From Candidatus Nanoarchaeia archaeon (GTDB lineage Archaea > Nanobdellota > Nanobdellia > Woesearchaeales > UBA525), in assembly GCA_028279755.1 (NCBI GenBank), contig JANQNB010000011.1, positions 130,501 to 194,500 of the forward strand: DNA of 64,000 bases. Direction: 5' to 3'. A program made the position numbers and the translations under genes. Of this stretch, positions 2,439 to 63,605 are shown piece after piece. The notes below the pieces were generated by a model. It ran no database searches and had not been told where the DNA came from. It saw only the letters and a program-made list of their open reading frames with translations. The stretch's first letter is position 1, and each line of letters begins with the position of its first letter.

Positions 2439-2924
2439 TTGTTCCTGGCACACATGTTTCGGGAAGCCTTGCTCTTTACTGTGGCGACAAGTCTGACAGC
2501 GTGCACTCCTGCAACGAAGCCGCAGGCCGTCCAGGTTCTGGAAAGCAGGGTGAATATTGTAACGAGCTTGCCAGCCGCGAGAATCGCCTTAGACAGTGCG
2601 ATGAACGCCAGAGAACCCGCAATCTACGTCCTTTCCGCAAAATGGTGCACGTATTGCAAGCCATTGGAGGAAGATCTCAAGCACTTCGCAAATGGTTCCC
2701 GACGGGTTATTGTCGCCCAGCTTGATGATCCGAACCCGCTGATCCGCTATGCAAACAGGTATGCGAAGCACGATAATGTCACGGGTTTTGGTCGCGAGAT
2801 ACCCAACAGCATTATCATCGCCTTTGATGGCCAGAATGTCTGGGCCACAGGATACAGTCCTGAAACGAACGAGTTCCCGAATAATTCGCTCGGCAGATCT
2901 ATAAGCATGGACGAGTTGTTCTAG
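2439..2924 (+). CDS. Thioredoxin-fold lipoprotein
   Basis: Hydrophobic N-terminus with lipobox-like SLTAC; thioredoxin-like AKWCTYCKPLEED (CxxC); cis-Pro-like EIPNSIIIAFDG. Confidence 0.75.
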   Translation: MFLAHMFREALLFTVATSLTACTPATKPQAVQVLESRVNIVTSLPAARIALDSAMNAREPAIYVLSAKWCTYCKPLEEDLKHFANGSRRVIVAQLDDPNPLIRYANRYAKHDNVTGFGREIPNSIIIAFDGQNVWATGYSPETNEFPNNSLGRSISMDELF

Positions 2925-5900: not shown

Positions 5901-7408
5901 TCCTTGTTCTCGGTCGACGAGACCTTGATCGTCACGTCGCAGGGCTCGCCTGCAGTGCATTCCGGTTTTGTCGGCGTGTAGCTGACACGGAGGTCGTCGC
6001 GGTCGATGTCTGTCGGTCCGCTGATAACGTCTGACTCTTCAGAAGTTTCCGGTGTTTCGTCCGGAGTCTCTTCTGGAGTTTCTTCTTCACTTGTTCTTGG
6101 CGGGTCGCCTTCCGGACATTTTATTACAGCAGGGAAAAAACGATGGGTATCAGACACATCTTCGCTCTGTGCAGGCTCGTCTTGTCGGCTGACATAGAAC
6201 AATCGAACACGCTCCTCGCTATCAACCCATAATCCAGGGAAGAGATAGACACCGCTACCGCGGCCGTCAGCGTACTCGAACTCAAAACCAGCTTCCGGAT
6301 GGTCTTCAATCATGTCAGGATCCATTGCCGGGTTCTTGCACAGTCCTGGCAGGACCGCGAGCTGGATCGACGTGAGCGGTTCCTCCCCAGGAAGAAGCAG
6401 GGGAGTGGCTGGTTCCCAAGTGACAGTTACCCAGTCGTCATCCCCTAAGAGGAAGGTACCCTCGGTACCCCACGCCTTATACAGCGCAGAGAACAGGCTG
6501 AGATCGGGGATGCTGTCGATAGGAACGCAATACAATTGCAGATATTCTTCTGCAGACATTGCTGGCTGGTCGTCGTGGGGTTCGCAGGCATAGAGCCGGT
6601 CGTCTTTCTCTGCAGCCACGATCGTGTGGTCTGCATAGGCAGTGCCGCGTTGGAAATAGATACTGTAGGAGCTGCGCGTGCATTCCGACACTTTCAGGCC
6701 TGCGCGTCGCATGCCGGTCACAGAACGCGGTGTGGCCGTTGCTTGCGCTACAAAGGTGCCTGGTTTCATGCCGTAGCTCGCGTAGGCTTCTGGCTTCGGG
6801 TCGATGTTGACCAGGCAGCCGTCCTGCACGTCGAAGTGGAGGTTCAGCAGCAATCGCTTGTAGGCGGAGATGCGTTGCTCTCCTTCAGTCGGTCCCGGCG
6901 CTGCTGGCTCGCCCTTGTACGGCACAGAGCCGCCGTTGATGATCTTGTACGGATGTTGCGGTTCCTCTTCGCTCGACGGTGTCAAGAGCAGTTTCTTCCC
7001 GTTCTGGCTGATCCACACCCGATATTCGAGGATGCAACCGGTCTGGTCGCTTGGTGATCGGCAAATGGCTGACCGTTTCATGCTGGTATAGATTGGTAAG
7101 GAGGTGCGGAGATATTTGACACGGATGAAGGCATCGGTCTTGAAATAATCCCTGAAGCCGCGGTCGATCCTGTTCGCGCGGTCGCGTTCGCTCGTCGCGA
7201 GGAGGTTCTCGACAGTGAATGATTCTGTCTGCAAGAGCTCATACGCCGGGCTGCCGCTCTCTTTTTGTACGGTGTAGGTGTTGCCGTTCTTGGTGAACAC
7301 CAGTCCGGGCTTTGGGAAGTTGCCCTTGTTATACTTGTTCGCCGCGAGAACAAGGCTGGCGACCAAGAGTATGACAATAAGTGTGCTCAACACTGTTTTG
7401 TATTTCAT
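2921..7408 (-). CDS. Very large (1495 aa) secreted Cys-rich protein with Gly/Asp-repeat linker
   Basis: N-terminal MKYKTVLSTLIVILLVASLVLAANKYN signal/anchor; low-complexity GDGTGDGSGDGDGTGDG linker; Cys-rich C-terminus. Confidence 0.9.
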   Translation of the reverse strand: MKYKTVLSTLIVILLVASLVLAANKYNKGNFPKPGLVFTKNGNTYTVQKESGSPAYELLQTESFTVENLLATSERDRANRIDRGFRDYFKTDAFIRVKYLRTSLPIYTSMKRSAICRSPSDQTGCILEYRVWISQNGKKLLLTPSSEEEPQHPYKIINGGSVPYKGEPAAPGPTEGEQRISAYKRLLLNLHFDVQDGCLVNIDPKPEAYASYGMKPGTFVAQATATPRSVTGMRRAGLKVSECTRSSYSIYFQRGTAYADHTIVAAEKDDRLYACEPHDDQPAMSAEEYLQLYCVPIDSIPDLSLFSALYKAWGTEGTFLLGDDDWVTVTWEPATPLLLPGEEPLTSIQLAVLPGLCKNPAMDPDMIEDHPEAGFEFEYADGRGSGVYLFPGLWVDSEERVRLFYVSRQDEPAQSEDVSDTHRFFPAVIKCPEGDPPRTSEEETPEETPDETPETSEESDVISGPTDIDRDDLRVSYTPTKPECTAGEPCDVTIKVSSTENKELPPYCIVGFTNGQPLNVGNARANLYDGTAVIGESDTGKNTDLRFILPCKRLKDGEKFTLTFNKKDQPVGTGTRTVRMYTLPNKGLRQSDTEDSDGGVTVDNIIHDGVALMGHDRNIDYTPPGARGELILKDANDVAGGTGGGDGTGDGSGDGDGTGDGDGTGDGTGDGDGTGGDGTVALGPNGLPTNPCAPALPAAWGDYELIYCLNKDYEVPDYDADAAPSSHSTILHVDQTQHRVELKKQLFNADPVPSSSNPTYAHFRRDKNVPDSAVGIYRSTSDYNKVIVIHKNGVGSIAHEETQYFSGYVYSSEGNAPVGVLLLQDVIRGTTQSSKYVHYCFKGAVGDAVQHNFKTTNSKIKQGDRTGYWHDDDTSVAGSVMQRMDLENSDDRFTYCSDQKALEAAPFVSEATVLTKSMSYAGNMHFQFDGSPKTKFVYVWRPTDSGHDTRIVEVTVEEPTPNHYSFRLLNERRTNSHVRIPYLQADNTWNNAGDADFEPMPLRIETKEGTDMCSVHHALIQLDTDKQWAVRWRASTDESCGEGNSDSYTAGGGLEARFRFYDKGFADAPFILVFDNVISSIQELSSSLFGEAPIESKRGMYQLAIDVRDDEPAGEAPWSQFFSPRKNDYWNTYDVQEGLQEEEEEGPTELTGEVVAITGNVIDSNAPRPAYLTVSDKPDGQSPWIGVGADPVEKIPVYFASDGKVKSYLGHRWAGDANAQLVFDSAGGSDPWEYNADLGASRLGVLNENEEYRRFMQEQNQFRMVMEPGGVFDQDDNVYYMQVVTPELETRRALTGYTADNNWVWGLGKASISCPEFFRPAGITQGVIDQNSYFSLNIEEECTTEDECRRMISGWRDQIGCGDCSSQFDRDFWYGKLCELTGQSSDCPEADVLADAVLDALDQCSDLVADAVENRDFPPTEFTGPECCPAASGGSKSSCAISARDETMAGIDGVSVSVFCAQKTTSASQREGNTAVQACKWCDTGCGDSKGTCKT
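5369..5500 (-). repeat. Degenerate short tandem repeat encoding the (G/D/T)n linker
   Basis: Repeated ccatc(g/t)cc(g/t)tc(g/a)cc(a/t) units giving GDGTGDGSGDGDGTGDGDGTGDGTGDGDG. Confidence 0.8.
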
Positions 7409-24019: not shown

Positions 24020-25663
24020 ATGGTATATAGTAATCGTGCCCGAGGTGGCGTACACGGCTCGGTCGACACAAAGAAAGAAGTCATCCGATCGATGTATCGA
24101 TTGGCCGGAGTGACTACTCATAAGAATCTTAGCACTTTCAAGATTCTTGATCCGGCCGGAGGAGATGGGCGTTTCATCGTGGAGTACCTGAGATTGCTCT
24201 GGAACTCTGCGAAGAAAAATAAATTTGATTTTGCAGCTGCGTTGCCAAATGTGAGAATCACAGAGATTGACAAGAAAAAATGTGAAAACATCCGCTCAAG
24301 CATCAAGGAATTCTTGAAGCAGAACGGCATTTCCATTAAACAATCTGTACTTGACACAATGATTGTTCAGGGCGATTTTCTCGATCAGCATTTTTTCGGC
24401 GGGCAGTTCGATTTAATCATCGGAAATCCACCATATATCCGCTATGATAACATTCCTGACATGCAAAAGAAAAGATATCGGAAGATGTTCTCCACTTTCA
24501 GACATAGAAGCGATATCTACATCGCTTTTTTCCAGAAATCCTTCGAGCTTCTGAGTAAACAAGGAAAAGTTTGCTTCATCTGCGCGAACAGGTGGTTGAG
24601 AAGCCAATACGGAGAACCTATACGACAGGCAATCGCTAAAGAATATGCCATACCTGTGATTATTAACATGGAAGAAGCCGACGCTTTCGACGAGAAAGTC
24701 GATGCCTACCCCGCAATTACCATATTCGAGAAAGAGAAAAAAGGGGATTTCGTTCGCTATTACGACATTAACAACATCAAACTACTTGACAAAATATCTG
24801 TGAATCAGGAAGCTGTTAACTATACTAAGCTTCCTCAGCCCGTGGACGGTAACTGGGAGAGTATATTCATGTCCGACCTCCACGCGGATGACCGCTTCGC
24901 ATTCCTCGAAGAACAGGGATTCAGTTTGGGAATTGGTGTAGCAACCGGTGCCGATAAGGTTTTTATCGGAAAAACTCTGCCCGAAAAAATTGAGAAGGAT
25001 CTGCTCTTACCTTTGATTGTTTCCAGAGATATAAATGATGGTGTGGTAGAGTGGTCTGGTAATTACTTGCTCAATCCTTACGCTGAGAATGGAGAAGTAA
25101 TCGATCTTGATGCATACCCTCGAGCGAAAAAGTATTTTGAACAGCACAAAGAGCAATTATCTGCCCGCCACGTCGGGAAGAAGTCTCCCGATAAGTGGTA
25201 CAAGACAATCGACAAGGTGAAAGCAGACCTCACTGCGAAACCAAAACTTATTCTGCCAGATATGAAAAAAAATTCCATTTTTGTTATTGAAGAAGGCAAG
25301 TTTTATCCGCACCACAATCTTTACTACATCACTAACGATATGGAAGAGAACTTAGCAATCTTGGGTGCAATACTCAACACGGATTTCGTGATGAGCCAGA
25401 TGGAGCACATCAGTAACAAGATGAACGGTGGTTATGTGCGCTGGCAAGCCCAGAATCTAAGAAAAATCAAGATTCCTCGACTGGAAAAACTCAGCGAAGC
25501 ACAGAGATCTGCTCTCTTGAAATCCTACCATGAACGAGACCCAAAACTTGCAGAACAAGCTATTAATTCGTACACTTCTAAGACTGGTGCAGAGACAACA
25601 GATTTCCTAGCTCCCAACTCCCAAAGTAAAATTCGAACTTCGTTAAACACTCGTTGTGTGTAA
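24020..25663 (+). CDS. N6-adenine DNA methyltransferase (cognate of PaeR7I-like REase)
   Basis: LDPAGGDGRFIVEYL (motif I), FDLIIGNPPYIRYD (motif IV NPPY), CFICANRWLRSQYG; starts 4 nt after the REase. Confidence 0.92.
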   Translation: MVYSNRARGGVHGSVDTKKEVIRSMYRLAGVTTHKNLSTFKILDPAGGDGRFIVEYLRLLWNSAKKNKFDFAAALPNVRITEIDKKKCENIRSSIKEFLKQNGISIKQSVLDTMIVQGDFLDQHFFGGQFDLIIGNPPYIRYDNIPDMQKKRYRKMFSTFRHRSDIYIAFFQKSFELLSKQGKVCFICANRWLRSQYGEPIRQAIAKEYAIPVIINMEEADAFDEKVDAYPAITIFEKEKKGDFVRYYDINNIKLLDKISVNQEAVNYTKLPQPVDGNWESIFMSDLHADDRFAFLEEQGFSLGIGVATGADKVFIGKTLPEKIEKDLLLPLIVSRDINDGVVEWSGNYLLNPYAENGEVIDLDAYPRAKKYFEQHKEQLSARHVGKKSPDKWYKTIDKVKADLTAKPKLILPDMKKNSIFVIEEGKFYPHHNLYYITNDMEENLAILGAILNTDFVMSQMEHISNKMNGGYVRWQAQNLRKIKIPRLEKLSEAQRSALLKSYHERDPKLAEQAINSYTSKTGAETTDFLAPNSQSKIRTSLNTRCV

Positions 25664-28157: not shown

Positions 28158-28757
28158 TTAAGAAGTGATTTCTTTAATGAGCTGATGCACATTGCAAACT
28201 GGGTTATTCTGAACATTAAAAAGTACATCTTCTTCGCAGTGATTGTAAGAAGCAATCAATTTTTCTGCATTAAGAATTGCATTCGTTTCTAGAGGCTTGA
28301 GAATATCATAGTAGTCAACATTCTTTCTATAACCATCAGCATCTAGAGCATCAAGTTTCCGAATTATTACCTCCTTATTCAAAGGATCGGTAAGATACTC
28401 AAAGTGCAATAGAAACCACAATTCAAAACAAGGATTTGATAGCACCAAGTTTATACCACTTCCAATTTCCTTTTTCGCCTTGTTAAGCATTTGCTGACGT
28501 TCATGGCTACTCTCTTCAATATCGAAGACAATCCAAATCTCCTCCAAACTATAGCCTAACCTAATGTGGCACTTTTTAGCAAAAGAGATGAGACTTACTG
28601 GATCAGTCTCACTACAAGTAGGTACTCGAATATGCTTATCCCTGACTTGTTGAGCGTATCTCTTAAAATAAATTCGTTCGGTTTTTGAGCCCTCGCAGAT
28701 GAGAAGCATTGATTTCCGCTCAGTTAATTTAGGTATATGCCTTCTTTTTTGCATCAT
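28158..28757 (-). CDS. RloB-like protein
   Basis: LLICEGSKTERIYFKRY...EEIWIVFDIEESSHERQQMLNKAKKE...LVLSNPCFELWFLLHFEYL is the RloB-like signature. Confidence 0.85.
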   Translation of the reverse strand: MMQKRRHIPKLTERKSMLLICEGSKTERIYFKRYAQQVRDKHIRVPTCSETDPVSLISFAKKCHIRLGYSLEEIWIVFDIEESSHERQQMLNKAKKEIGSGINLVLSNPCFELWFLLHFEYLTDPLNKEVIIRKLDALDADGYRKNVDYYDILKPLETNAILNAEKLIASYNHCEEDVLFNVQNNPVCNVHQLIKEITS

Positions 28758-30013
28758 AGAGTATCCTCAGGAATGCGCTCGTCTCCTAAATGAGGAAGGC
28801 CACCAAATTTACCCAGCATGTACTTTCTGAATAATCTTCTGTCACTTCGTTCTGCATAAGAGTGCAATGAGATCAGAGATGTTGACTTATCCTCTTGTTT
28901 GTCTGTTATCCAGATCTGGTCAGTTCTGAATACGTCAATATCGTCTAAAAAAACAACACTGTGACTAGTGAATATTAATTGGGCACCTTTATTGTTCATC
29001 TCGGGATCATGAAACATCCTAATCAGATAGTTTTGCAAACCAGGATGTAATTTCACGTCAAGTTCATCAATTACAATAATCCGGCCTTTCTTCAACGTGT
29101 TGAAAAGAGGTCCGAGGAGGTGGAAGAATTTTTGTGTACCATCAGATTCTTCAGAAAAGAAATCAAATTTTATTGGCTCTCCAGCATTATTTCCCACAGG
29201 TTGATGAAAAGTTTTTAGATCCACACTGCCTTTTTCCAAGAGTATTTCACGAAAAATATCAGGCGCGTCCTTTAGCTCCTCTTCCTTGTATTTTCGAGTT
29301 CTAGCAGTAATATCTTGGATATCCAAGTCGGCATTCTTAAGAGCCTGCAGAACTCGCGTCTTACACTTGGAGTTTTGGTTCATAAAAGCTATCGTTTTAT
29401 CAGTGTGTATAAGATCTGTTGGACCTATAGTATACAAGACGTCCTTAAACCAAGAGAAGATTCTTCTTATAGGCTCATAACCAAGCGAACTTGCACGTGA
29501 TAGATATAGTACATTTTCTGGAGTCTGTTTACTTCTGACTTCCTGCTCCTCAGGATCAACTCCAAACTCAAACTCTTTTTCTCTGATAAAGATTATTCGC
29601 TCTCTACGAATCTTTGTAAAGCGAACGAGTTTTTCCTTGAGAATCCGTTCACTATTATGAACCAACTCGTATTGATGCTCACAATTGTCAACAATAAAAT
29701 TGATTATGAAGTGAGTGGGTTTGGTGCTAAATTCTGTGTTCAGTTTAAATGGAGTATAAGGTAGCTTATCACCAACGTTATGTTTGTCAGATGATAAAAT
29801 CATTTGTTTTAAAGTCTCAAATGCAAATAACACATTTGTTTTGCCCGAAGCATTCTGACCAATCAGGACGGCTGATTTAAGCAAACGCGGAGGATCCCTC
29901 ATTTTGGTATCAATAAGATTATCACTAAGATTACGAATTGAGCTTGGAATCATCGAAAGGCAAACTTCATTCTTAATCGAACGGAAGTTTTCAACCCTGA
30001 ATTCAATCAGCAT
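28754..30013 (-). CDS. AAA/ABC-type ATPase (RloA-like; AAA_15/AAA_21)
   Basis: LIEFRVENFRSIKNEVCLSM, Walker A GQNASGKTN, GRIIVIDELDVKLHPGLQNYLIRMF (Walker B), QLIFTSHSVVFLD; 4-nt overlap with RloB. Confidence 0.88.
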   Translation of the reverse strand: MLIEFRVENFRSIKNEVCLSMIPSSIRNLSDNLIDTKMRDPPRLLKSAVLIGQNASGKTNVLFAFETLKQMILSSDKHNVGDKLPYTPFKLNTEFSTKPTHFIINFIVDNCEHQYELVHNSERILKEKLVRFTKIRRERIIFIREKEFEFGVDPEEQEVRSKQTPENVLYLSRASSLGYEPIRRIFSWFKDVLYTIGPTDLIHTDKTIAFMNQNSKCKTRVLQALKNADLDIQDITARTRKYKEEELKDAPDIFREILLEKGSVDLKTFHQPVGNNAGEPIKFDFFSEESDGTQKFFHLLGPLFNTLKKGRIIVIDELDVKLHPGLQNYLIRMFHDPEMNNKGAQLIFTSHSVVFLDDIDVFRTDQIWITDKQEDKSTSLISLHSYAERSDRRLFRKYMLGKFGGLPHLGDERIPEDTL

Positions 30014-47011: not shown

Positions 47012-47800
47012 TCACCCGGTCTTCGAGTATTTTGCCTGTTCTTGCTTCGCCACTTCCTGCAACCACGCGATGCGTTGGAGGAGTGGTTTTTTGCGAATTT
47101 TTGAGAGATAATCGAGCATCTGCTGCCGCACGATGCCTTTTTGCGCATCGTTGTACACTGAGACACTATACCCCAGCATCTTCTGGACATAGGTGTAGGC
47201 TTGGCGCACTTGCTGGTCTGTGCGCATCCGGTATGCGAGCTGTCCGTGCAAGGCCTTGGTTTCGTCGAGCTTGCGGCGGAACTCAACTGGATCCTCACCG
47301 TGGTGCCACTTGAGGGTGTCGCGCTCGCCGACATGCTTGAGTTCCATCTCTGTCCATTTGCCGAGATCGTGGATCGCTTCCTCGACAGAGATAGCTTTGC
47401 CTTCGACCTGTGCCATGGTCTGGACTTTCTGATAGGTCTCGCTCCATTCCTCGCTGTGCGCGTAGCGGCCGCCGCCTTCGTGCCAGGCATCGGCGAACAG
47501 GAAGCGCAGGGTCAACTCCTGCGCCGGGAAGTCGTCAGGGAGTTCGATCTCGAACGGTACCTCTGTTTCCTTTCCTTCTGCGATCCTGATGATGAAGGAG
47601 GGCTGGCTCATCGCTGCGTTGTGCGCGAACGTGTCTGGGCCCCGTTCTTCCGCAACCATGAACTTCTCTGCTGGTCGTACCATGAAGGTGAGCCGTTCCC
47701 GTCGGTCGCCGCTATACAGGACAGGCTTCACTGCGAGCAGGATGATGCCTGATGCCCCTTCATTGAAGGGCACGAATGTCTTGCTGGCAGTTACTTTCAT
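47012..47800 (-). CDS. Uncharacterised protein (cluster gene 4)
   Basis: 262 aa; beta-like N-terminus, helical C-terminus; 4-nt overlap with gene 3. Confidence 0.65.
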   Translation of the reverse strand: MKVTASKTFVPFNEGASGIILLAVKPVLYSGDRRERLTFMVRPAEKFMVAEERGPDTFAHNAAMSQPSFIIRIAEGKETEVPFEIELPDDFPAQELTLRFLFADAWHEGGGRYAHSEEWSETYQKVQTMAQVEGKAISVEEAIHDLGKWTEMELKHVGERDTLKWHHGEDPVEFRRKLDETKALHGQLAYRMRTDQQVRQAYTYVQKMLGYSVSVYNDAQKGIVRQQMLDYLSKIRKKPLLQRIAWLQEVAKQEQAKYSKTG

Positions 47801-50800
47801 GGTTGACCACCTGTGGGTGCTGCATGCGCAGTCACCTGCGCCGCTGACGTCAGGACAAAGTCGATGTAGTTGACATCCCAGAGCAGGTTCTCGTTGCCCA
47901 CTGCCTCGCCGCGTTCGAGCGCGCGGATGATGCCGTCAGTGAGCGGCTGGATCTGCGCCGCTTCGGCTCCTGGCTTGCACGCCACGCAGATGAGGCGATA
48001 GGTGCCGTAATGGGCCTTTCGCGCGCGCGGGTTCACTGCGATCTCTGGTGTGAAGGTGATGTTGTTCGTGATCTTGACTGCCTGCTCTGTCAGGGTGCCG
48101 AAGCTGAAGCTGCCAGCGCTGGTTCCTGGGTAGAGGCTCCGGGTCTTGTCGTAATGGAGCGAGGGCAGCATGACAATCTTCGAGTCGTTCGCATTGACGA
48201 ACGCGTCGCTGTACCGGCCGGATCGTGGATCGCCATTGCGATACGCGAGGATGAAGTAGAGCTTTGCTTCCACCTCTCCTGATTTCTTGAGCGTGAAGCT
48301 GAGTTCTGAATTGCGCATGCCCATGCTCATGAGCTTGAGCAGTTTCTTCGCAGCGTCAGGTACGCGGTACACGCCATTCGCTTCGCACCATTCCGGACCG
48401 AAGACCGGCGCGAGCGGCGTCTTGTGCGCTGATCTTTTCCTGTTCTCGAGTTCAGCTGTAGGGTAGACGAGCAGTTTCGGTTCGTTCTGCTCAGCTTCGC
48501 GTTTCTGCACCACGACAATGACATTCTCTTTCGTGTGGTCTTGCTCTGTGAGCGCGAAGTATCGCCGGAACGTGCCGGTGTGATCGTTGAGGGTCTCTTC
48601 CTGTCCCTCGACAGGTTCGACATGCGGCGCCCAATGCTCGGGATCCAGGCCGTGATGCGTCCGTCCTTTCTTCGCAAGCAGTTCGATGTGCTCGCCGTAA
48701 TACGGCAGTCGCAATTCGAAGTGGCCGTCTTCCTGCGTCCATTCTTCGTATTCTGGCTCGACAGTCGCGTTGTCGATCAGCTTGAGCTCTGCCTTGTCCA
48801 CGCCGATGCCTTGCGCTTGCAGCACGCGAGCGATCTGTTCGTCGCTCAACTCAACCTTCAAATTGACAAAATCTTCGTAGGAGCAGGTGAGACCAAGCAA
48901 GGGCTTCACGCCCTGGTCGCCGTCTTCCCACACCACGACGCGGCCAAGGATGGTCGAGGGGCTGGGCTCGTCACTGGGTCCGTGCCTGATCCAGTGCCAT
49001 TTCCAATGCAGCTCGTACGGGCTCAGGCGGGCGTACGCCTCCGGATCTGTTGTCGCGAGTTCGCGATCCTTCACATGAGAGACTGCGGCGCCGAGGCCGA
49101 CGATCGGGAATTTTTTCCAGTCGTTGTTGTCTGCAACCGTGTCTGCGAAGAACGTGTTGATCTCGGTGAGGCCGCTCGCGCCGAGGAAGTTGCCGACTGC
49201 GCGTCCTTCGTCCTCTTTGGAGTTGGAGAGCAGGGCATCGACATCCTTCTGCTTGCCTTCGATGTAGCGGGCGAGGTCTGCCTTGCTGAACACGCGCGGG
49301 TATTCGCCGTGCTCGTTGAGGGTCATCACGTCGTCTTCTTTCGCGAACGCGAAGAACATCCAATAGAGCTCGCCTTCGAATGGCTTTGCGCCTTTGCGTT
49401 TCTTCTTCTCTGCCTTCGCCGCTTCTGCCTGCCGTTTCTCAGCAAGCCGTCTCGCGAGGAGTTGCGCTACCTCGTAGAAGCTACCCAGTTTCTTGACGTC
49501 ATAGGGTACTTTATGGAAATACTTGCGGAAGAGGATGTTGCGATCAGAATCAAGACCGCCCAAGCCCCAGGGACGATGGCTCTGGAAGATGAAGAATGCG
49601 AAGTGGCGTCGCTGAAAGAGCAGGTCGCGAAGATTTCTTTGGGTGTCGGCATCTGCGAGTTTCGCATCGATCTCTGCCATGATGTCTGCTTCGGTCTTGC
49701 CATTCCCGAGCCAGATATACTTATGCATCTCTCGCCAGAAGACAATCTTCAGGCTCCAGATAATTGGCCTGAGATTCGGCTGGGTACGTAAGCGGAGATT
49801 GTCGATTGGCCAGCGCGGGCTGAGCTCCATGCGTCCCATCTCTGTAATAAACTTGCGGCTGTATTCGTCGAATGGGATTTTAAACGCGTTGTTGCCTTGC
49901 GCGCGCATCTCGCGGCGCATGAAAGCGATGAAATGATTCGTGACCACGCCGAGGGTGCGCACTTCGCCGATGATGATATCGACGATCGCCCGTCCGTCTG
50001 GTGCGGTGAGGATGGCTCTATACTGGAAGATACGGCATTCTTCAGCGAAATGGTAGAAGAGCCTGCCAAAGATGTTTCGGCGATTCAGCGCATATCCTTC
50101 CTGGTCGAAGTGCTTGACAATGTGTGGTATCACTCCCCACGCGTTCAGTCCCCAGTAGACAAAGAACTTTGGCCAGGCACGGAAGCGGTGGAGGAAGGCG
50201 GCCATGAAGAGGTTGCGCATCACCTCATGATTCTCAGGCGCCATCAGATCGTCCATGAACTTCTCGATGTCCTTGCTTGTCCAGTTGCCCAGGTACAACG
50301 ACTTGTACATGGGCTTGAGCACGTAGAGCATGCCATATTTCCAAACCGGGTTGCCGACTTTCGTCGCGTCCAAGGCCATCGCCTGGATGTTCAGCGGACC
50401 GACATCTGCCCGGTCGTCAGCGCGCTGTGGATTGGTAATTTCTGAGAGCTTGATGCTCCCATTCGGATCTGAGAGCGCTCGCAAATACGTGCGTGCGGTG
50501 TCGAGATCAAATGTTGCCTGGTCGATGAGTGTCTGAATTTCAGTCTCTGCTGCGATTCGCTCAGCCTGGTCAGTGAGTTGCCTAGCGTTCCTGAGCTGGT
50601 CCTGGAGCCCTTCCAGCTGGCCTTCGAACACCGCGATGTCACGTCGCGTGTCTGCGATCGCGTGCGCATAGACAAGGCAGCGCGGCACTTCGATGTCGCC
50701 AGCGCTATTCACGAATTCGCTGGCAAGCTCGTGGAATTTCTTGTCGAAAGTGAAGTGCTCGTGCACGTGGAGCAGGTATCTGACGAAAAGGACAGACACG

Positions 50801-51804
50801 ACGAGCTGCTTTGGCGAGGGGATGTCCTCGCTTGAGGCGATCTTCAGCCTGTAGAACAGGCCGATAATGCCATCGTGCAGTCCGGTAGCGAATTCACCAA
50901 TGCCGTCCGCGACTTTGCGCCCCTGCTGCTTGATATCACGCCCGAGTTCTTTCCGCTTGAGCTTCCGGCTGAGCTTTCGCCGCATGCCTTTCAGCGCGAA
51001 GTCGTGCTGATTATCGAGATTCTCGAGCCGGACATTGAATGCGTCGGCGTCGTAGCTCAGCTCGAGCGCGTGCATCTCTCGCTTATGGATGCGTTCTTTC
51101 TCCTGGAGAATCTCTTGTCGTTCTGCTTCTTTTTGTTGTTTCTCGACTTTGAATGCTGCGACTAGATCCTTTGTCGCAGCTTTGGCTGCAAAGGTACGGT
51201 CTCGTCGTTCCTTTTTCGCTTCTCGAATTTCCTCTCGTCGACGTTGCCAATTCGCAGATGCGTCTCTTCGTCGCTCCCGATGTTCAAGCGCGCTTTGGCG
51301 AAATCGCTGCGCGATCTGCTCACCCGCATCTGCGCGTCGTTTCCAGAATTGCACGCTCTGCTGCCACACCAGCGCTTGCAGTTCTTCCGGTTGGTTGCGG
51401 AGTTTTCTGATGGTTTCTGCAGCGTCGTTCGCTGCTCTTTCCCGTTCAGGGTCGTTCCTGCGTGCTTCAGCGCGTTGTTCGTTGAGTTCAATGAGTTTAT
51501 TAAGGAAGAGTTCTGTTTGCCGATCGAAGTTCTCTGCTCTGTCAGCCCAATCCTGGGCGCCAGCATTCGCGAGACCGGTAGCTGCTGCGAGGACGCCGCC
51601 AGAGGCTTCTTCCAGCCCTCTCCTGAGATTCTCAAAGAGCGCTTCCGCTTCCTCTTCTGCCCGTCGCCAGCCTGCGAGAGAGTCTCGCTCATCTGTCTCG
51701 ATCTCGTCGAGAGGGAGCTCGACGCTCTCTTCGTCCTCCTCTGGCGCGACCGGATCTTCCGGCGTGTCTCCTTCTGGTGGCGTTTCTTCGTCTGCCATGG
51801 TCAC
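47797..51804 (-). CDS. 1335-aa uncharacterised protein with Glu/Arg-rich coiled-coil N-terminus (cluster gene 3)
   Basis: Single uninterrupted frame; acidic N-terminus, ~250 aa coiled coil, then globular region; no recognised motif. Confidence 0.75.
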   Translation of the reverse strand: MTMADEETPPEGDTPEDPVAPEEDEESVELPLDEIETDERDSLAGWRRAEEEAEALFENLRRGLEEASGGVLAAATGLANAGAQDWADRAENFDRQTELFLNKLIELNEQRAEARRNDPERERAANDAAETIRKLRNQPEELQALVWQQSVQFWKRRADAGEQIAQRFRQSALEHRERRRDASANWQRRREEIREAKKERRDRTFAAKAATKDLVAAFKVEKQQKEAERQEILQEKERIHKREMHALELSYDADAFNVRLENLDNQHDFALKGMRRKLSRKLKRKELGRDIKQQGRKVADGIGEFATGLHDGIIGLFYRLKIASSEDIPSPKQLVVSVLFVRYLLHVHEHFTFDKKFHELASEFVNSAGDIEVPRCLVYAHAIADTRRDIAVFEGQLEGLQDQLRNARQLTDQAERIAAETEIQTLIDQATFDLDTARTYLRALSDPNGSIKLSEITNPQRADDRADVGPLNIQAMALDATKVGNPVWKYGMLYVLKPMYKSLYLGNWTSKDIEKFMDDLMAPENHEVMRNLFMAAFLHRFRAWPKFFVYWGLNAWGVIPHIVKHFDQEGYALNRRNIFGRLFYHFAEECRIFQYRAILTAPDGRAIVDIIIGEVRTLGVVTNHFIAFMRREMRAQGNNAFKIPFDEYSRKFITEMGRMELSPRWPIDNLRLRTQPNLRPIIWSLKIVFWREMHKYIWLGNGKTEADIMAEIDAKLADADTQRNLRDLLFQRRHFAFFIFQSHRPWGLGGLDSDRNILFRKYFHKVPYDVKKLGSFYEVAQLLARRLAEKRQAEAAKAEKKKRKGAKPFEGELYWMFFAFAKEDDVMTLNEHGEYPRVFSKADLARYIEGKQKDVDALLSNSKEDEGRAVGNFLGASGLTEINTFFADTVADNNDWKKFPIVGLGAAVSHVKDRELATTDPEAYARLSPYELHWKWHWIRHGPSDEPSPSTILGRVVVWEDGDQGVKPLLGLTCSYEDFVNLKVELSDEQIARVLQAQGIGVDKAELKLIDNATVEPEYEEWTQEDGHFELRLPYYGEHIELLAKKGRTHHGLDPEHWAPHVEPVEGQEETLNDHTGTFRRYFALTEQDHTKENVIVVVQKREAEQNEPKLLVYPTAELENRKRSAHKTPLAPVFGPEWCEANGVYRVPDAAKKLLKLMSMGMRNSELSFTLKKSGEVEAKLYFILAYRNGDPRSGRYSDAFVNANDSKIVMLPSLHYDKTRSLYPGTSAGSFSFGTLTEQAVKITNNITFTPEIAVNPRARKAHYGTYRLICVACKPGAEAAQIQPLTDGIIRALERGEAVGNENLLWDVNYIDFVLTSAAQVTAHAAPTGGQP

Positions 51805-56926: not shown

Positions 56927-57529
56927 ATGGTGAGCAAGCAGAGCCTGGCAGTGGCGCTCTCAGAACTGGAGCAGTTCACACAGCCGGACCAGCAGCTCGA
57001 GCAATACGCCACAGACCCGAATATCGCAGCAGACCTGCTCTGGCAAGCGCATATGGCAGGACATCTGCAGGGCACAGTGATCGATCTCGGCGCAGGCACC
57101 GGCATCCTCGCCATCGGGGCAGCACTGCTCGGCGCAAACGTCATCGCAGTTGAAAAGGATGAAAAAGCTATTGAGATATGCAAGAAAAATCTCACAATAT
57201 TTGAGGGGACAGAGTCAGTAAATATTATTCAGGGTGAGATACAAAACTTCTCTGAACACGGCGATGTCGTCATCATGAATCCGCCCTTCGGCACGAAAGA
57301 ACGGCATGCTGACCGCGTGTTCCTCGAAAAAGCAGTGCAGCTCGCGCCAGTCATCTACACCATGCACAAAACGACGACAAGGAAATTCGTCGAATCCTTC
57401 TGCACAGACCATCATCTCGACATCATCTGGGAAGAAAACAAGGACTTCCCGCTCAAACGAAGCATGGACCATCACCAGAAAGACAGGGAACACATCGACG
57501 TAACGCTCTTCTGCCTTCAGAAAAGGTAA
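56927..57529 (+). CDS. METTL5-like archaeal methyltransferase
   Basis: LEQYATDPNIAADLLWQAHMAGHLQGTVIDLGAGTGILAIGAALLGA...DVVIMNPPFGTKERHADRVFL. Confidence 0.92.
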   Translation: MVSKQSLAVALSELEQFTQPDQQLEQYATDPNIAADLLWQAHMAGHLQGTVIDLGAGTGILAIGAALLGANVIAVEKDEKAIEICKKNLTIFEGTESVNIIQGEIQNFSEHGDVVIMNPPFGTKERHADRVFLEKAVQLAPVIYTMHKTTTRKFVESFCTDHHLDIIWEENKDFPLKRSMDHHQKDREHIDVTLFCLQKR

Positions 57530-57963
57530 TAGATCTTCGCGAGCATGATGTTCGCGACAGCATTCATGCCCATGTACAAGACATACTTGAGATCAAAGCG
57601 TTGCAGCGCGTAGTTCACCAAGGCGCCGATCACATGATACGCGATGATGATCGCAAAGAGGTTGTGGATCAGCAAAGCAAGATACCCGACAAGGATCGTG
57701 ACTGGCAGCACCAGCCAGAGGAAGCGGAGATCCTTCACGCCTGTCGCGGCATAGGCGACATTCAGGAACAAAGCGCTGACAACGATATTGTTCCCGTTCC
57801 AGGCCAGGATGGCGATCGCCGCCGGGCTGATCTCGAACGCAGAGAAATGAAACACATAGCGACCGAGAAACGCAAGCAACACGTTCAGGACGATAAACAA
57901 TACCAGGAGCATGCAATGGCGACCCAGGGCGTGTTTATTAAGCTTGTCGTGCACACTCGGCAT
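57517..57963 (-). CDS. Polytopic membrane protein
   Basis: MPSVHDKLNKHALGRHCMLLVLFIVLNVLLAFLGRYVF...; overlaps upstream AAA gene 3' end. Confidence 0.6.
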   Translation of the reverse strand: MPSVHDKLNKHALGRHCMLLVLFIVLNVLLAFLGRYVFHFSAFEISPAAIAILAWNGNNIVVSALFLNVAYAATGVKDLRFLWLVLPVTILVGYLALLIHNLFAIIIAYHVIGALVNYALQRFDLKYVLYMGMNAVANIMLAKIYYLF

Positions 57964-59452
57964 CAAACTGTGCTTGCGCCAAGAATTCCACTCGCTTGTC
58001 ATACGCCCGCAGCGAGACAGCCTCCGCAGTCTCCTGATCAAAACGCCGTTGTTTCTCAGCAAGAAAGGCGTCAATGCCGCGGATCACATCTTCAGCTGTC
58101 AATCGTTGCTCTAGCGTGTCAGACTCCACCAACAACTCAGTTTTTGCCATCGGTGCCAGCAACGCTCGCAATCCGAGATTTGTGACGACATCCTTCACGT
58201 CACGGCCTGAAAACGTGCGCGGAACCTTTCCAGGAATCAGCTGCCCGGCAGCGTATTCGCCGATTGGAAGCCAGTCATCGACCTGCGCAGCACCGTTGCA
58301 ATGGCGCTCGAACGCAAGCGCATACTCTGCAGCAGTCTGCGGCCCAGGCGCGTAGAGAATCAGCTCGCTCAGGCGACTGTCTAAGGCAGGATCAAGCTGC
58401 AAGGCATGGTTCGAGGTCGAGATGAAAAGATAATTGCCACGATCAGAAGAGAGCACGCCATCCAATTCGTTCAGGATAGCGTGCATGATATTCCGCTCCT
58501 CAGGAGAACTGCCCAAGGTTCGTCGGTCCTGAAAGATCCCGTCGATATCATCGGCAAACAGGACGTACGCAGCATTCCCTTCCCGAACCTCCTGAAACAA
58601 AGCGCGCAAGTTCTCAGCGCTCTTGCCGAAGAACGAGCTCTTGAACGCGGTCGAGACCGGCTTGAAGATGAAGGGCACGCTCATCTGCGGTTCCAGCAGC
58701 TCCTTCGCGCACGCGTACACCTGACGCACGCCAGTCGTCTTGCCAGTGCCAGGCGGCCCCTGGATGCTCACTGTCTTCGGTACGCGCAGCTGCAAAGGAT
58801 TCTCGACGCCATTGAAATGCGCGAGCCCGTAGAGCGCGCTCGAGAGCCCTTGCAGCATGTCCTCGTTTCCGACCAGAGGCTCGGTGATTCGAAATCGTGT
58901 CGTGGCAAGATGGCTGGTTTCAGCGAAGCCAGCGTAGTGCTTCTCGCCGATCGCGACAGAGAACGCGGCAGTCAAGCTCCGGAGTGGAGCATATTGTTCA
59001 TCGCTCGACGCGGAATGAGCTGCGTGTCTCAGGCCTCCGAACAAGGAGCCCAGCGCTTCATCGCCCTGCAGATAAGGCTGGAGCGCGCTGTGGAACAAGA
59101 CGCGCCGGCGGTCATACTGCTCACCGCTGAAGTCCACATGCACAGACGCCATTCCGGGTTCGAGCGTCTCGCTTGCCATCGCATGCTGGGCTGCGACACT
59201 TACTGCATACATGTCCAGGAAGCGCGTCTTGATCTCAGGCGGGAACTCGCCATTGATGGCCTGATGCATCTGCTCCCTGAGCTCATCATACACAGCGAGG
59301 AATTCCTGCAAGGCGCTTTTCTCACGTTCGCCGATCTTCAGGGGCAAGCCGCCATTCAGCTCATACTGCAGTATGCCGATAGCGCGTTGGCGTCGCTGTG
59401 CCAGCAGCGTGTCCTCTAGCTGAATAGTGTACTGGCTCCGCATCGGAATCAC
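57938..59452 (-). CDS. Classic AAA+ ATPase
   Basis: SIQGPPGTGKTTGVRQVYA (Walker A), AAYVLFADDIDGIFQDRR (Walker B), NIMHAILNELDGVL, SNHALQLDPALDSRLSELI. Confidence 0.9.
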   Translation of the reverse strand: MIPMRSQYTIQLEDTLLAQRRQRAIGILQYELNGGLPLKIGEREKSALQEFLAVYDELREQMHQAINGEFPPEIKTRFLDMYAVSVAAQHAMASETLEPGMASVHVDFSGEQYDRRRVLFHSALQPYLQGDEALGSLFGGLRHAAHSASSDEQYAPLRSLTAAFSVAIGEKHYAGFAETSHLATTRFRITEPLVGNEDMLQGLSSALYGLAHFNGVENPLQLRVPKTVSIQGPPGTGKTTGVRQVYACAKELLEPQMSVPFIFKPVSTAFKSSFFGKSAENLRALFQEVREGNAAYVLFADDIDGIFQDRRTLGSSPEERNIMHAILNELDGVLSSDRGNYLFISTSNHALQLDPALDSRLSELILYAPGPQTAAEYALAFERHCNGAAQVDDWLPIGEYAAGQLIPGKVPRTFSGRDVKDVVTNLGLRALLAPMAKTELLVESDTLEQRLTAEDVIRGIDAFLAEKQRRFDQETAEAVSLRAYDKRVEFLAQAQFDAECARQA

Positions 59453-60600
59453 GCGTAGGGGATCTCCATCTCCATGATCTTCCTGCCAGCCGTCTTGGCA
59501 TTTTCCAGCCGGTCATTCTGACGCATCCGATAGCCCAGATCGTCGTCCTCAAGACCTGCCATCTTGATTCCTGATTCATACCCCGCAGTCAGTCGTTTCG
59601 GGATCGCGTCACGCACTGCCACGGTTGTCGCTTCGAACGACTTGTCCAGATCGCTCAGCACGCGCTGTGCCTGATCACGGACTCCGCCCAGGCGGATCAT
59701 AGCTTCAGGATTCAGGACCGAGAACTGGTCATCCATGTAGAGCTTGATCGAGCCTGCAAGGAGATCCATCTCTGCCCAGAAATCCATGACCTCGTCGACA
59801 AGCGGCGCGATCAGGCCGAGCATGTACCTTCCTCGCCCAATGCGGAGTTCGCTGATGCTGATGTTGTTCGCTGACAGGCGCTTGCCACGCTCATAGATGC
59901 TCCGTTCATGACGAAGCTCGCTCAGCTCGCTTCGGAACTCGTTGTGCTCGCTGCCGGCCTGTTCATAGCTCCGCACCTTCTTCTGCAGGTCTTCGATCTC
60001 GCCAGCAATAGTGATGAGCCTGCCTTCAGCGATCTCGATATCGTTCATCTGCTGCGCGACAGTGCGCTGGCTCTGCACCAGGCTGTCGATCGTCTGGTCA
60101 TAGAGCTGTTCGATCTGGGTGTTCATCTGGTCCAGCTCGCTCACCGCATCGTCCAGTTTTGTCGTCAGATGCTCCTTGAAGCGCTCGCGCACCACCGGCT
60201 TCATGCTGCTACGGTACTTTTCAGCAAAAGTCGTGCCTGCAAAGCCGAGCATCGTATCAGCGATTTCAAGACGTCTGAGGCGTCGCTGCTCTGACGGGGT
60301 GTAGAAGAATTCGGGATTCTCCGGCATGAACGCGGCGTCATACGCTCCCTGCGCTTCCTGCAAGACATCCCGGAAGCTTCGCAGTCGCTGGTTGATCTCC
60401 TCAGGACGGATCTCCGGCACTTCAGGAACAAGGACGTGGTACTGGTTCGGATTCTTCACCAAGTGCTCTGCGAGCCGTTCTTTTTCGCGCGGATTCATCC
60501 CCTTGTATTTTGGATGCAGTTCTGCGAGCCGTCCGACAAGCTCCATCGCCTCTTCCTTGCTTACCTCAGTAACAGTTCGTTCTTCCAGTGTTGGTTCCAT
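59449..60600 (-). CDS. Coiled-coil protein of unknown family
   Basis: 383 aa, long central helix; 4-nt overlap with AAA+ gene. Confidence 0.65.
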   Translation of the reverse strand: MEPTLEERTVTEVSKEEAMELVGRLAELHPKYKGMNPREKERLAEHLVKNPNQYHVLVPEVPEIRPEEINQRLRSFRDVLQEAQGAYDAAFMPENPEFFYTPSEQRRLRRLEIADTMLGFAGTTFAEKYRSSMKPVVRERFKEHLTTKLDDAVSELDQMNTQIEQLYDQTIDSLVQSQRTVAQQMNDIEIAEGRLITIAGEIEDLQKKVRSYEQAGSEHNEFRSELSELRHERSIYERGKRLSANNISISELRIGRGRYMLGLIAPLVDEVMDFWAEMDLLAGSIKLYMDDQFSVLNPEAMIRLGGVRDQAQRVLSDLDKSFEATTVAVRDAIPKRLTAGYESGIKMAGLEDDDLGYRMRQNDRLENAKTAGRKIMEMEIPYA

Positions 60601-60612
60601 CGAGTTCCCTCC

Positions 60613-61083
60613 TCATGCGATCTTTCTGAATTCCACCGGCAATCTGACGCCGGTCTGATACTGATCAATGAAGCGCGATAGTCTGTGCCTGAATCCTGGA
60701 TGATGCTTGTCGTGTGGTGCAAACCGGACCACATAGAGCCGCACGCCTGCCTTTCGCGCATAATCGATCGCGAGTGGCTGGTAGCCGTGCGTTGTCACGA
60801 CCAGCCCCTGTTCGCGGGCAATCCCGCATACGTCCAGGTCTGCAATGAACTTGGACACGTCGCGTTCGCTGGCGACCTTGTCCTCGCGATACTTGCACTC
60901 GACGTACTCGCTGATCATGAGCAGTGGCGGAACCGGGTACGCGATGTCGAACGGGATCGATCTCCGTCCCCGAGGGCGCACGATGCGTTTCCGCACTTCG
61001 TGCTCCAGCCGGACACGGACAAAGCCGTCGCGTCGGAGCAAGCCTGCAATATACTGCGCATACGGATGCGGTGGCCCCATCAC
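60613..61083 (-). CDS. Predicted PD-(D/E)xK (Mrr-like) nuclease
   Basis: IPFDIAYPVPPLLMISEYVECKYREDKVASERDVSKFIADLDVCGIAREQGLVVTTHGYQPLAIDYARKAGVRLYVV: D...ECK core and Mrr_cat-like continuation. Confidence 0.65.
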   Translation of the reverse strand: MMGPPHPYAQYIAGLLRRDGFVRVRLEHEVRKRIVRPRGRRSIPFDIAYPVPPLLMISEYVECKYREDKVASERDVSKFIADLDVCGIAREQGLVVTTHGYQPLAIDYARKAGVRLYVVRFAPHDKHHPGFRHRLSRFIDQYQTGVRLPVEFRKIA

Positions 61084-61478
61084 TTACCGCCCGGCAAGGT
61101 GTCCGCGACCTTGATCGCGAATTCCATCGAGCCAGGGTGTTGCTGATAGGTCGCGAGCAGGCGTTCTGTCGCGTCAGGCATTGGCACTTCCGCGCCGGTG
61201 CGCGCATTCGTCAGGTAGGTCTCGACAGCGCCGTGCTGATTGACACGCGCATCGATTGAGTACATGCCAGGATACTCGAGAAAGCCCTTGGCAGTCGGGT
61301 GCATCGTCATTTCCTCGAGGGCGGTCGTTGGCGCAGCCCCTTCGCGCACGCCTGCATGGTACCGGCACGAGCCGTAACCGAGGAATGCGCCTATGGCGAC
61401 TGCACCGATCACCGCTTTCTTGACAAAGCTTCGGAGCCTTCCTGTTTTTTTTGGTTGAAAACTTTCCATGAACACCAC
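61080..61478 (-). CDS. Small membrane-anchored protein
   Basis: One TM (KKAVIGAVAIGAFLGYGSCRY); 4-nt overlap with the nuclease-like gene. Confidence 0.55.
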   Translation of the reverse strand: MVFMESFQPKKTGRLRSFVKKAVIGAVAIGAFLGYGSCRYHAGVREGAAPTTALEEMTMHPTAKGFLEYPGMYSIDARVNQHGAVETYLTNARTGAEVPMPDATERLLATYQQHPGSMEFAIKVADTLPGGK

Positions 61479-61599: not shown

Positions 61600-62286
61600 T
61601 CAACCCAAATGCAGAATGGAGGTTTTCTTCGCTGCCTTGACGCGGATCCGCTCGCCTTCGCGCAGGGCGCGGCGATACTTGAGATTGTCAGCAGCGAGCT
61701 CAGCAGGACCGCGCAGGATCCTGACCTCGATTTTCACGTCCTCTGCAAGGAGCAGAGGCTCTTGTTCAACCGTAACGTTGTTCAACGCGAGGCCGAGGCC
61801 GTTCTCGACCGTGTCCTTCGTGATGCTGTGATAATACGCAGTGCTGCCGAACGGCGTTGCAACCACGAGCCCGTCACCGATCAAGTGTTCGAATACTTTC
61901 TTTTTGTCAATGAACACGTCGAAACGGATCGCGTGCTCCACTCCCTTGTTGCGGATGATGATGTCATTCAGGCCAAGCAGCGTGTCGTTGCCAACTTTGG
62001 CTTCCAGCTTCTTGTGTTCACTCGTGTGAAACGTGCCGTTCTTCAGGAGCTCAAGCGCGTGCGTCATCTCGTGATCATGGCATTTCTTGCAGGTCGGGCT
62101 CGCCCGCAATGGCAGTTTCGGCACGCCAGGATAGACGCGTTCAGCGTGGAGCAAGGTGCCGTCGCCGCCATACGTGATGACAAGATCGGGTTTTTTCGCA
62201 TCATAGACAAAGCCGTATTCCTTGACGTGCTTCCTGCAGAGTTGACAGGCTGCCTTATCCTTTGAGACAATCGCGATACGTTTCAT
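61600..62286 (-). CDS. nadK: NAD kinase
   Basis: DLVITYGGDGTLLHAERVYPG; HLIGDGLVVATPFGSTAYYHSITKD. Confidence 0.93.
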   Translation of the reverse strand: MKRIAIVSKDKAACQLCRKHVKEYGFVYDAKKPDLVITYGGDGTLLHAERVYPGVPKLPLRASPTCKKCHDHEMTHALELLKNGTFHTSEHKKLEAKVGNDTLLGLNDIIIRNKGVEHAIRFDVFIDKKKVFEHLIGDGLVVATPFGSTAYYHSITKDTVENGLGLALNNVTVEQEPLLLAEDVKIEVRILRGPAELAADNLKYRRALREGERIRVKAAKKTSILHLG

Positions 62287-62313
62287 CGACGCCAGCACCC
62301 GGATTCGAACCGG
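62286..62313. repeat. 28-bp copy of the tRNA-Ser 3' end
   Basis: tcgacgccagcacccggattcgaaccgg identical to 62380-62407. Confidence 0.9.
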
Positions 62314-62383
62314 AACAACCTCGAGCGAAGCTCTCGGAGCCCCGCTTCGAACCAGCACAGTGGAAGGGTGCAAGACCCTTCGA

Positions 62384-62487
62384 CGCCAGCACCCGGATTC
62401 GAACCGGGAATTCCCGAAGGAACCGGTTCTCACGCGTCCTTGCGGACAGTTCGAGACCGGCGCAATACCAGGTTATGCGATACTGGC
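62384..62487 (-). tRNA. tRNA-Ser(CGA), class II, with ~21-nt intron
   Basis: GCCAGTA...TGCTGGC acceptor, long variable arm TTCC-TTCG-GGAA, discriminator G, anticodon region CCGGT-CTCGAA-[CTGTCCGCAAGGACGCGTGAG]-A-ACCGG. Confidence 0.8.
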
Positions 62488-63478: not shown

Positions 63479-63605
63479 TGCGGGTGGGGAGACTTGAACT
63501 CCCGACCTCCAGATGGCTCAGCGCCGTGTCCAGTCATCGCTCCGAAGAGCTCGTCACTCACGGCATTTATGAGTCTGGCGCTATAACCAGCTAAGCTACA
63601 CCCGC
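63479..63605 (-). tRNA. tRNA-Met(CAU) with ~53-nt intron
   Basis: GCGGGTGTAGCTTAGCTGGTTATAGCGCCAGACTCATA...TCTGGAGGTCGGGAGTTCAAGTCTCCCCACCCGCA; intron helix GCCGTG/CACGGC. Confidence 0.9.

Follow-up and report, generated by a model that had tools for sequence, protein, structure and literature searches.

In McrBC type IV restriction, an AAA+ motor and a PD-(D/E)xK nuclease are encoded together and the nuclease is driven by nucleoside triphosphate (NTP). Coiled-coil nuclease tandems (CoCoNuTs) bring coiled coils, an AAA+ motor and a nuclease into one operon, are based on an McrB-type GTPase, and are reported to be nearly absent in archaea (PMC11090510). MoxR-vWA ternary conflict systems count Mrr-like nucleases among their effectors (PMC7159879). 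DPANN archaea are described as poor in known immune systems, with restriction-modification and CRISPR-Cas underrepresented (PMC12988326). The locus analysed here is a four-gene cassette in a stretch of 64,000 nucleotides (the window; contig JANQNB010000011.1, positions 130,501 to 194,500) from the 1.49-Mb draft genome of a Candidatus Woesearchaeota-type DPANN archaeon. The cassette encodes a small membrane-anchored protein, a predicted nuclease, a coiled-coil protein (CC) and an AAA ATPase. It is interpreted, with confidence just short of even, as a so far undescribed restriction-like conflict system in which an AAA protein drives a nuclease, probably in association with the membrane, and whose function would be defence.

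A broader proposal is put forward more tentatively, as possible with somewhat less than an even chance. It holds that a previously undescribed conflict system runs through a whole order of DPANN archaea, built on a core of coiled coil and classic AAA to which different partners attach interchangeably (Mrr nuclease, MoxR/vWA-like, transglutaminase-like or DUF6638 proteins), and that the window would hold its minimal nuclease-armed form. Should these proposals be right, a recurrent, exchanged AAA-CC-nuclease cassette would be a candidate for the missing DPANN defences, and the AAA gene with its upstream CC gene would be a concrete partner pair kept across an archaeal order.

Gene order and protein families

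The five open reading frames (ORFs) reported in a first-pass annotation of the window are all present on the minus strand where it placed them. The cassette reads from 61478 to 57938 on that strand as P0004, P0003, P0002 and P0001, nearly without gaps, and is followed by the multi-pass membrane gene P0005. In window positions, the features are:

61080..61469, minus strand: P0004 (TMa), small membrane-anchored protein, first gene of the cassette; listed ORF start GTG 61478
60613..61080, minus strand: P0003, predicted Mrr-type PD-(D/E)xK nuclease, 155/156 aa
59449..60600, minus strand: P0002 (CC), predicted all-helical coiled-coil protein, 383 aa
57938..59443, minus strand: P0001, AAA ATPase assigned to the classic clade, about 500 aa; listed ORF start GTG 59452
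58736..58759, minus strand: Walker A of P0001, GPPGTGKT, read directly
58541..58558, minus strand: Walker B region of P0001, FADDID, read directly
57517..57963, minus strand: P0005 (TM5), multi-pass membrane protein, about 148 aa
56927..57529, plus strand: METTL5-like methyltransferase, flank and one border of the slot; Pfam MTS 5.9e-13; syntenic in the genus
61600..62433, minus strand: NAD kinase, flank and other border of the slot; Pfam 1.7e-8; 58% identity to the G002 copy
62384..62487, minus strand: intron-like tRNA gene, flank directly upstream of the NAD kinase; Rfam tRNA 41.2 bits, missed by ARAGORN

Start codons were judged from ribosome sites and from the start positions in relatives. 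For P0004, ATG 61469, preceded by a GGAGGTG ribosome site at about 61482-61476, is a more likely start than GTG 61478. Likewise, P0003 more likely begins at ATG 61080, within a TGATG that gives a 1-nt overlap with P0004, and P0001 likely begins at ATG 59443, where its orthologues begin. A GAGGAGG ribosome site lies immediately upstream of P0002. For P0005, ATG 57963 (about 148 aa) is more likely than a TTG start (185 aa), and the gene so read overlaps the end of the AAA gene by about 26 nt. Because the likely starts are internal ATGs, the 4-nt overlaps that the annotation quoted rest on upstream GTG codons; its near-gapless picture is unchanged. The listed start of the flanking NAD kinase is too long, as homology starts near residue 51.

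The call of an AAA+ ATPase is borne out by a Pfam match of P0001 to PF00004 (E 7.5e-20). The protein carries an N-terminal helical domain of about 190 aa, the solved families nearest to its profile are p97/CDC48 and VPS4, and by its sequence it is a classic-clade AAA ATPase. In the genus alignment Walker A residues G232 and G235-T239 are invariant, as are K238, the sensor-1 Asn N348 and the Arg finger R360. The annotation had also read a non-canonical Walker B correctly: in FADDID an Asp replaces the usual catalytic Glu, so that the Glu looked for at this position is absent. The Asp is found in G000, G001, G003 and G004 (G000 being the window genome, G001-G005 relatives in its genus and G006 a sister genus), G002 has the canonical GDEID with Glu, and the wider family is mixed. 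Because both forms occur among relatives, the unusual Walker B is a tolerated variant and not the key to function; it does not exclude the classic clade, and P0001 may hydrolyse ATP. Single-protein AAA scans of genome and viral collections returned no matches.

The nuclease call likewise holds for P0003, which matches Mrr_cat (PF04471) in Pfam at E 8.4e-6, with 26.3 bits against a curated cutoff of 21, and whose relatives match the restriction-endonuclease family better (1.6e-11, 2.7e-12 and 6.6e-16). The alignment predicts as catalytic residues D46 (60948-60946), E62 (60900-60898) and K64 (60894-60892), within the FDIAYP...ECKYRE segment that the annotation had singled out; this D...E-x-K set is invariant in all ten nucleases compared, from seven taxonomic families. 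The nearest solved relatives of the nuclease profile are Card1 (1.2e-4) and AF1548 (7.5e-4). The AlphaFold model of P0003, built with three sequences, has a pLDDT of 44.7 and is too poor to use, and Foldseek gave no meaningful match. The restriction-endonuclease-like fold expected by the annotation is predicted from sequence, which speaks against the first of its refuting outcomes; the model is too poor to confirm it. The identity of P0003 as an Mrr-type PD-(D/E)xK nuclease is well supported by these matches, and the protein would cut DNA when licensed by the AAA ATPase.

P0002 is predicted to be all helix, its N-terminal part forming a helical domain and residues ~125-215/220-289 a long antiparallel hairpin; its AlphaFold model has a pLDDT of 67, the hairpin blocks mostly reaching 71-92. 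Homologues are found throughout the genus. The Pfam scan placed P0002 in no recognizable family, and Pfam and PADLOC gave coiled-coil matches only, with no ATPase domain. A TelA-like identity was rejected, as neither P0002 nor seven relatives had a Pfam TelA match. A resemblance to ESCRT-III, SMC or pore-forming proteins was also set aside, since helical hairpins of a generic kind were all that Foldseek returned (best E 7e-3).

P0004 has a basic N-terminus and one hydrophobic segment (AVIGAVAIGAFLGYGSC), followed by a domain of about 90 aa. Its orthologues in G002, G003 and G004 share 26-36% identity. Compared with the small anchored proteins of other families, P0004 matched only those of L139 (1e-3) and L113 (0.07), which is suggestive of homology outside the genus.

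Linkage and probable exchange of the cassette

The same four genes occur in the same order in G000, G002, G003 and G004. Partial copies are present in G001, where the CC-AAA pair sits upstream of ileS and at the end of a contig, and in G005 (L013 1-4246), where nuclease and CC are retained at a contig end and three opposite-strand genes occupy the AAA position. Gene calls in the relatives are mechanical, and most of the genomes are fragmented drafts made of metagenome-assembled contigs. The dN/dS values of all four genes, compared between G003 and G004, are 0.17-0.29, and the genes are therefore maintained as proteins under purifying selection. The annotation had proposed a unit of five genes, of which four hold together and the membrane gene is doubtful. 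In G000, G001, G002, G004 and G005, P0005 and the METTL5-like gene are arranged convergently; G001 has this pair without the cassette, and at L054, where the cassette sits elsewhere, P0005 stays beside the METTL5-like gene. Because this pairing persists without the cassette, P0005 is probably a neighbour and not a core member; synteny disfavours counting it as one. In G002, tandem P0005 copies with 31% mutual identity (L020 1059-1460 and 1494-1913) lie in the interval between METTL5 and AAA genes.

The linkage extends beyond the genus. The AAA-family profile found matches at E <=1e-30 in 32 of the 371 genomes sampled from the phylum, and those listed all belong to the same taxonomic order as the window genome. 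Outside the genus 33 AAA loci were examined, and in 30 of them a same-strand gene of 280-480 aa lies directly 5' of the AAA gene; among the three exceptions, one is truncated by the end of its contig and in another a called ORF of 120 aa separates the two genes. A shared upstream partner across families is suggested mainly by position and size, the sequence relationships of the CC proteins between families being weak. For example, hhalign gave no support for relating the coiled coil of G006 to P0002 (probability 0.4%).

A nuclease profile whose training sequences came from the window genus alone was applied to the 32 other genomes with AAA relatives. It gave four strong matches (E <=1.8e-8; G178, G060, G066 and G077) and one marginal match, and all four strong matches lie within about 3 kb of an AAA gene, for which the probability by chance is about 1e-9. 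With a wider profile, 14 of 19 matches were beside cassette genes and five elsewhere. The wider profile adds G072, G111, G177, G087 and G288; the first four of these had joined its training set and are weaker evidence. The genes are thus neighbours in related genomes of several families, which is the opposite of the outcome that the annotation had named as counting against its operon, and the linkage of the cassette genes is well supported.

Some of these loci carry further genes. A seven-gene operon in G006 (L086 4816-13556) has an AAA of the same family whose Walker B reads DDID, together with a DUF6638 protein (4.3e-23) and a large protein bearing a P0004-like membrane anchor, and has no nuclease; no literature on DUF6638 was found. 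In G072 (L153 951-10329), nuclease, small protein, CC and AAA are accompanied by a MoxR-type AAA_5 protein, a weak vWA match and a long coiled coil. Similarly, nuclease-CC-AAA operons in G060 (L106 4088-15856) and G177 (L154 1415-7806) are followed by a transglutaminase-core protein, and a lipoprotein-like small gene (lipobox ASGC) lies upstream in L106.

In G000 and G002 the cassette occupies the same slot, from METTL5 to NAD kinase, beside the intron-like tRNA gene. The flanks of the two genomes are 55-71% identical (METTL5 68%, TrmB-like 71%, NADK 58%), whereas the cassette proteins are 15-31% identical (AAA 23%, CC 15%, nuclease 31%, anchor 27%); G002 is the nearest relative of the window genome by flanking genes and the farthest by cassette. 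In the flank tree G000 pairs with G002 (support 80/95), and a pairing of G000 with G004 is rejected (p 0.016). The AAA tree, however, joins G000 with G003/G004 (98/97) and rejects G000 with G002 (approximately unbiased test, AU p = 0.00015). Because the cassette tree disagrees with the flank tree, the cassette behaves like exchangeable conflict or defence alleles. The case that whole cassettes have been replaced between species at a fixed chromosomal slot is strong but not final on these trees and identities; the slot is not fully constant, with other neighbours in G001 and G003.

Around the slot, the window holds two intron-like tRNA genes with long inserts (62384-62487 and 63479-63605, minus strand), both recognized by Rfam and neither by ARAGORN, and the tRNA-NADK pairing recurs in L020 and L012. 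About 28 kb from the cassette are genes for an Eco57I-type DNA methylase (24020-25663, plus strand, 7.7e-28) and for an AAA_21 ATPase (AbiEii/RloA kind; 28754-30013, minus strand, 1.5e-31), which may form a restriction-modification or defence cluster. Two large proteins of 1495 and 1335 aa (2921-7408 and 47797-51804, minus strand) had no Pfam match at 1e-4.

Possible functions of the cassette

As a restriction-like conflict system, the cassette might work as follows. The AAA protein, which belongs to a family of this kind, would form a ring remodeller of the p97/VPS4 type, and the CC protein, genetically linked to it, would be in physical contact as an obligate partner, either an adaptor or a sensor arm. 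Once invading DNA or an invader protein was sensed, the ring would act on the CC, and the Mrr-type nuclease would be released or loaded onto DNA. The anchored P0004 could tie the assembly to the membrane or signal from it. The purpose would be conflict with mobile elements, and swapping between species at a conserved slot, as the tree discordance suggests, would be in the manner of defence alleles.

Several points weigh against this interpretation. The discordance could be due in part to long branches in the AAA tree. Many CC-AAA loci, including that of the sister genus G006, lack the nuclease; it is not the core and for this reason is regarded as one among several genes attached to a common CC-AAA core. 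An AAA of the cassette family was not found in the G005 draft genome. The C-terminal domain of P0004 looks as if it faces outward, which suits cytosolic restriction less well. Moreover, the cassette matches no known defence system in PADLOC.

In one alternative the cassette is an envelope DNA-handling machine. Host or environmental DNA would be imported or processed by the anchored proteins and the AAA-CC complex and trimmed by the nuclease, to the benefit of nutrition, recombination or repair in a symbiont with a reduced genome. In the genus and in L106 the nuclease is preceded by small proteins that are membrane-anchored or lipoprotein-like, and the neighbourhood is of a housekeeping kind with no obvious island. 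Yet the window cassette has no helicase, pilin or channel gene, and both the disagreement between cassette and flank trees and the patchy presence speak against it, which leaves this alternative unlikely.

Two further explanations are slightly less probable still. DPANN archaea are often symbionts, and the cassette could serve protein remodelling or effector delivery, the nuclease being a toxin delivered to neighbouring cells or those of the host and the MoxR-/vWA-like proteins of relatives being assembly chaperones. The MoxR-type AAA and weak vWA match downstream of the AAA gene in L153 and the transglutaminase-like domains in L106 and L154 would fit such a role. However, no immunity gene and no injection or tail parts were seen, the nuclease of most loci has no export signal, and the MoxR, vWA and transglutaminase extras are absent from the window, making delivery improbable. 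The other explanation, similarly doubtful, is a chromosome-associated housekeeping complex, an SMC- or ESCRT-like AAA with CC and a repair nuclease, whose fast divergence would reflect weak constraint and not conflict. VPS4 is among the closest AAA structures, and the fold search with P0002 weakly and generically matches SMC arms and Vipp1; but those coiled-coil matches fall short of significance (E >= 7e-3), P0002 bears no ATPase head, presence is patchy, and the four genes diverge together while the flanks are conserved. Chance adjacency of unrelated genes, to which the partial sets on the G001 and G005 contigs might point, is scarcely credible given the nuclease-AAA neighbours in several other families and the same order in four congeners.

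Comparison with known systems

The annotation's statement that no named system has this layout agrees with the PADLOC check: no PADLOC system fits, and beyond the Mrr domain PADLOC, NCBIfam and Pfam gave no more than generic matches to AAA or coiled-coil models. The layout is not described in those parts of the literature covered by a non-exhaustive search, including a 2026 survey of archaeal immunity.

Individual systems resemble the cassette in part. The IetAS anti-phage system is approached by P0001, which matches IetA models at 2e-11 and 6e-11, but the score is 42 bits against an NCBIfam cutoff of 510. IetAS requires a protease, and no IetS protease is encoded in the cassette operon. In CBASS with TRIP13, the likeness is confined to the AAA domain (TRIP13-model match of P0001 at 1.2e-11), and the CD-NTase and HORMA partners were not found. 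SMC, Wadjet and Lamassu systems have a coiled coil with an ABC ATPase head, and P0002 has no ATPase domain. The Mrr type IV restriction enzyme shares its catalytic domain with P0003; unlike that enzyme, P0003 matches the catalytic domain only and is encoded with an AAA protein and a coiled coil.

Among the conflict systems with an AAA motor, the FtsH class of MoxR-vWA ternary systems (PMC7159879) likewise has a classic-clade AAA with helical partners, but with two AAA domains per protein where P0001 has one. Pfam found neither MoxR AAA nor vWA in the cassette or the neighbouring genes scanned, and only some distant relatives, such as L153, have them. CoCoNuTs share with the cassette the grouping of coiled coil, motor and nuclease in one operon, and McrBC shares the joint encoding of motor and nuclease; no McrB- or McrC-type family was among the Pfam matches of the cassette, which separates it from both. 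Unlike McrBC, moreover, the motor belongs to the classic clade (p97/VPS4 type) and not to the McrB GTPase clade, the nuclease is Mrr_cat and not McrC, the coiled coil is a protein of its own, and a membrane-anchored protein is also encoded. The cassette is thus best compared to an AAA-coupled PD-(D/E)xK nuclease system that differs from the known ones in the clade of its motor and in its order-wide CC-AAA core.

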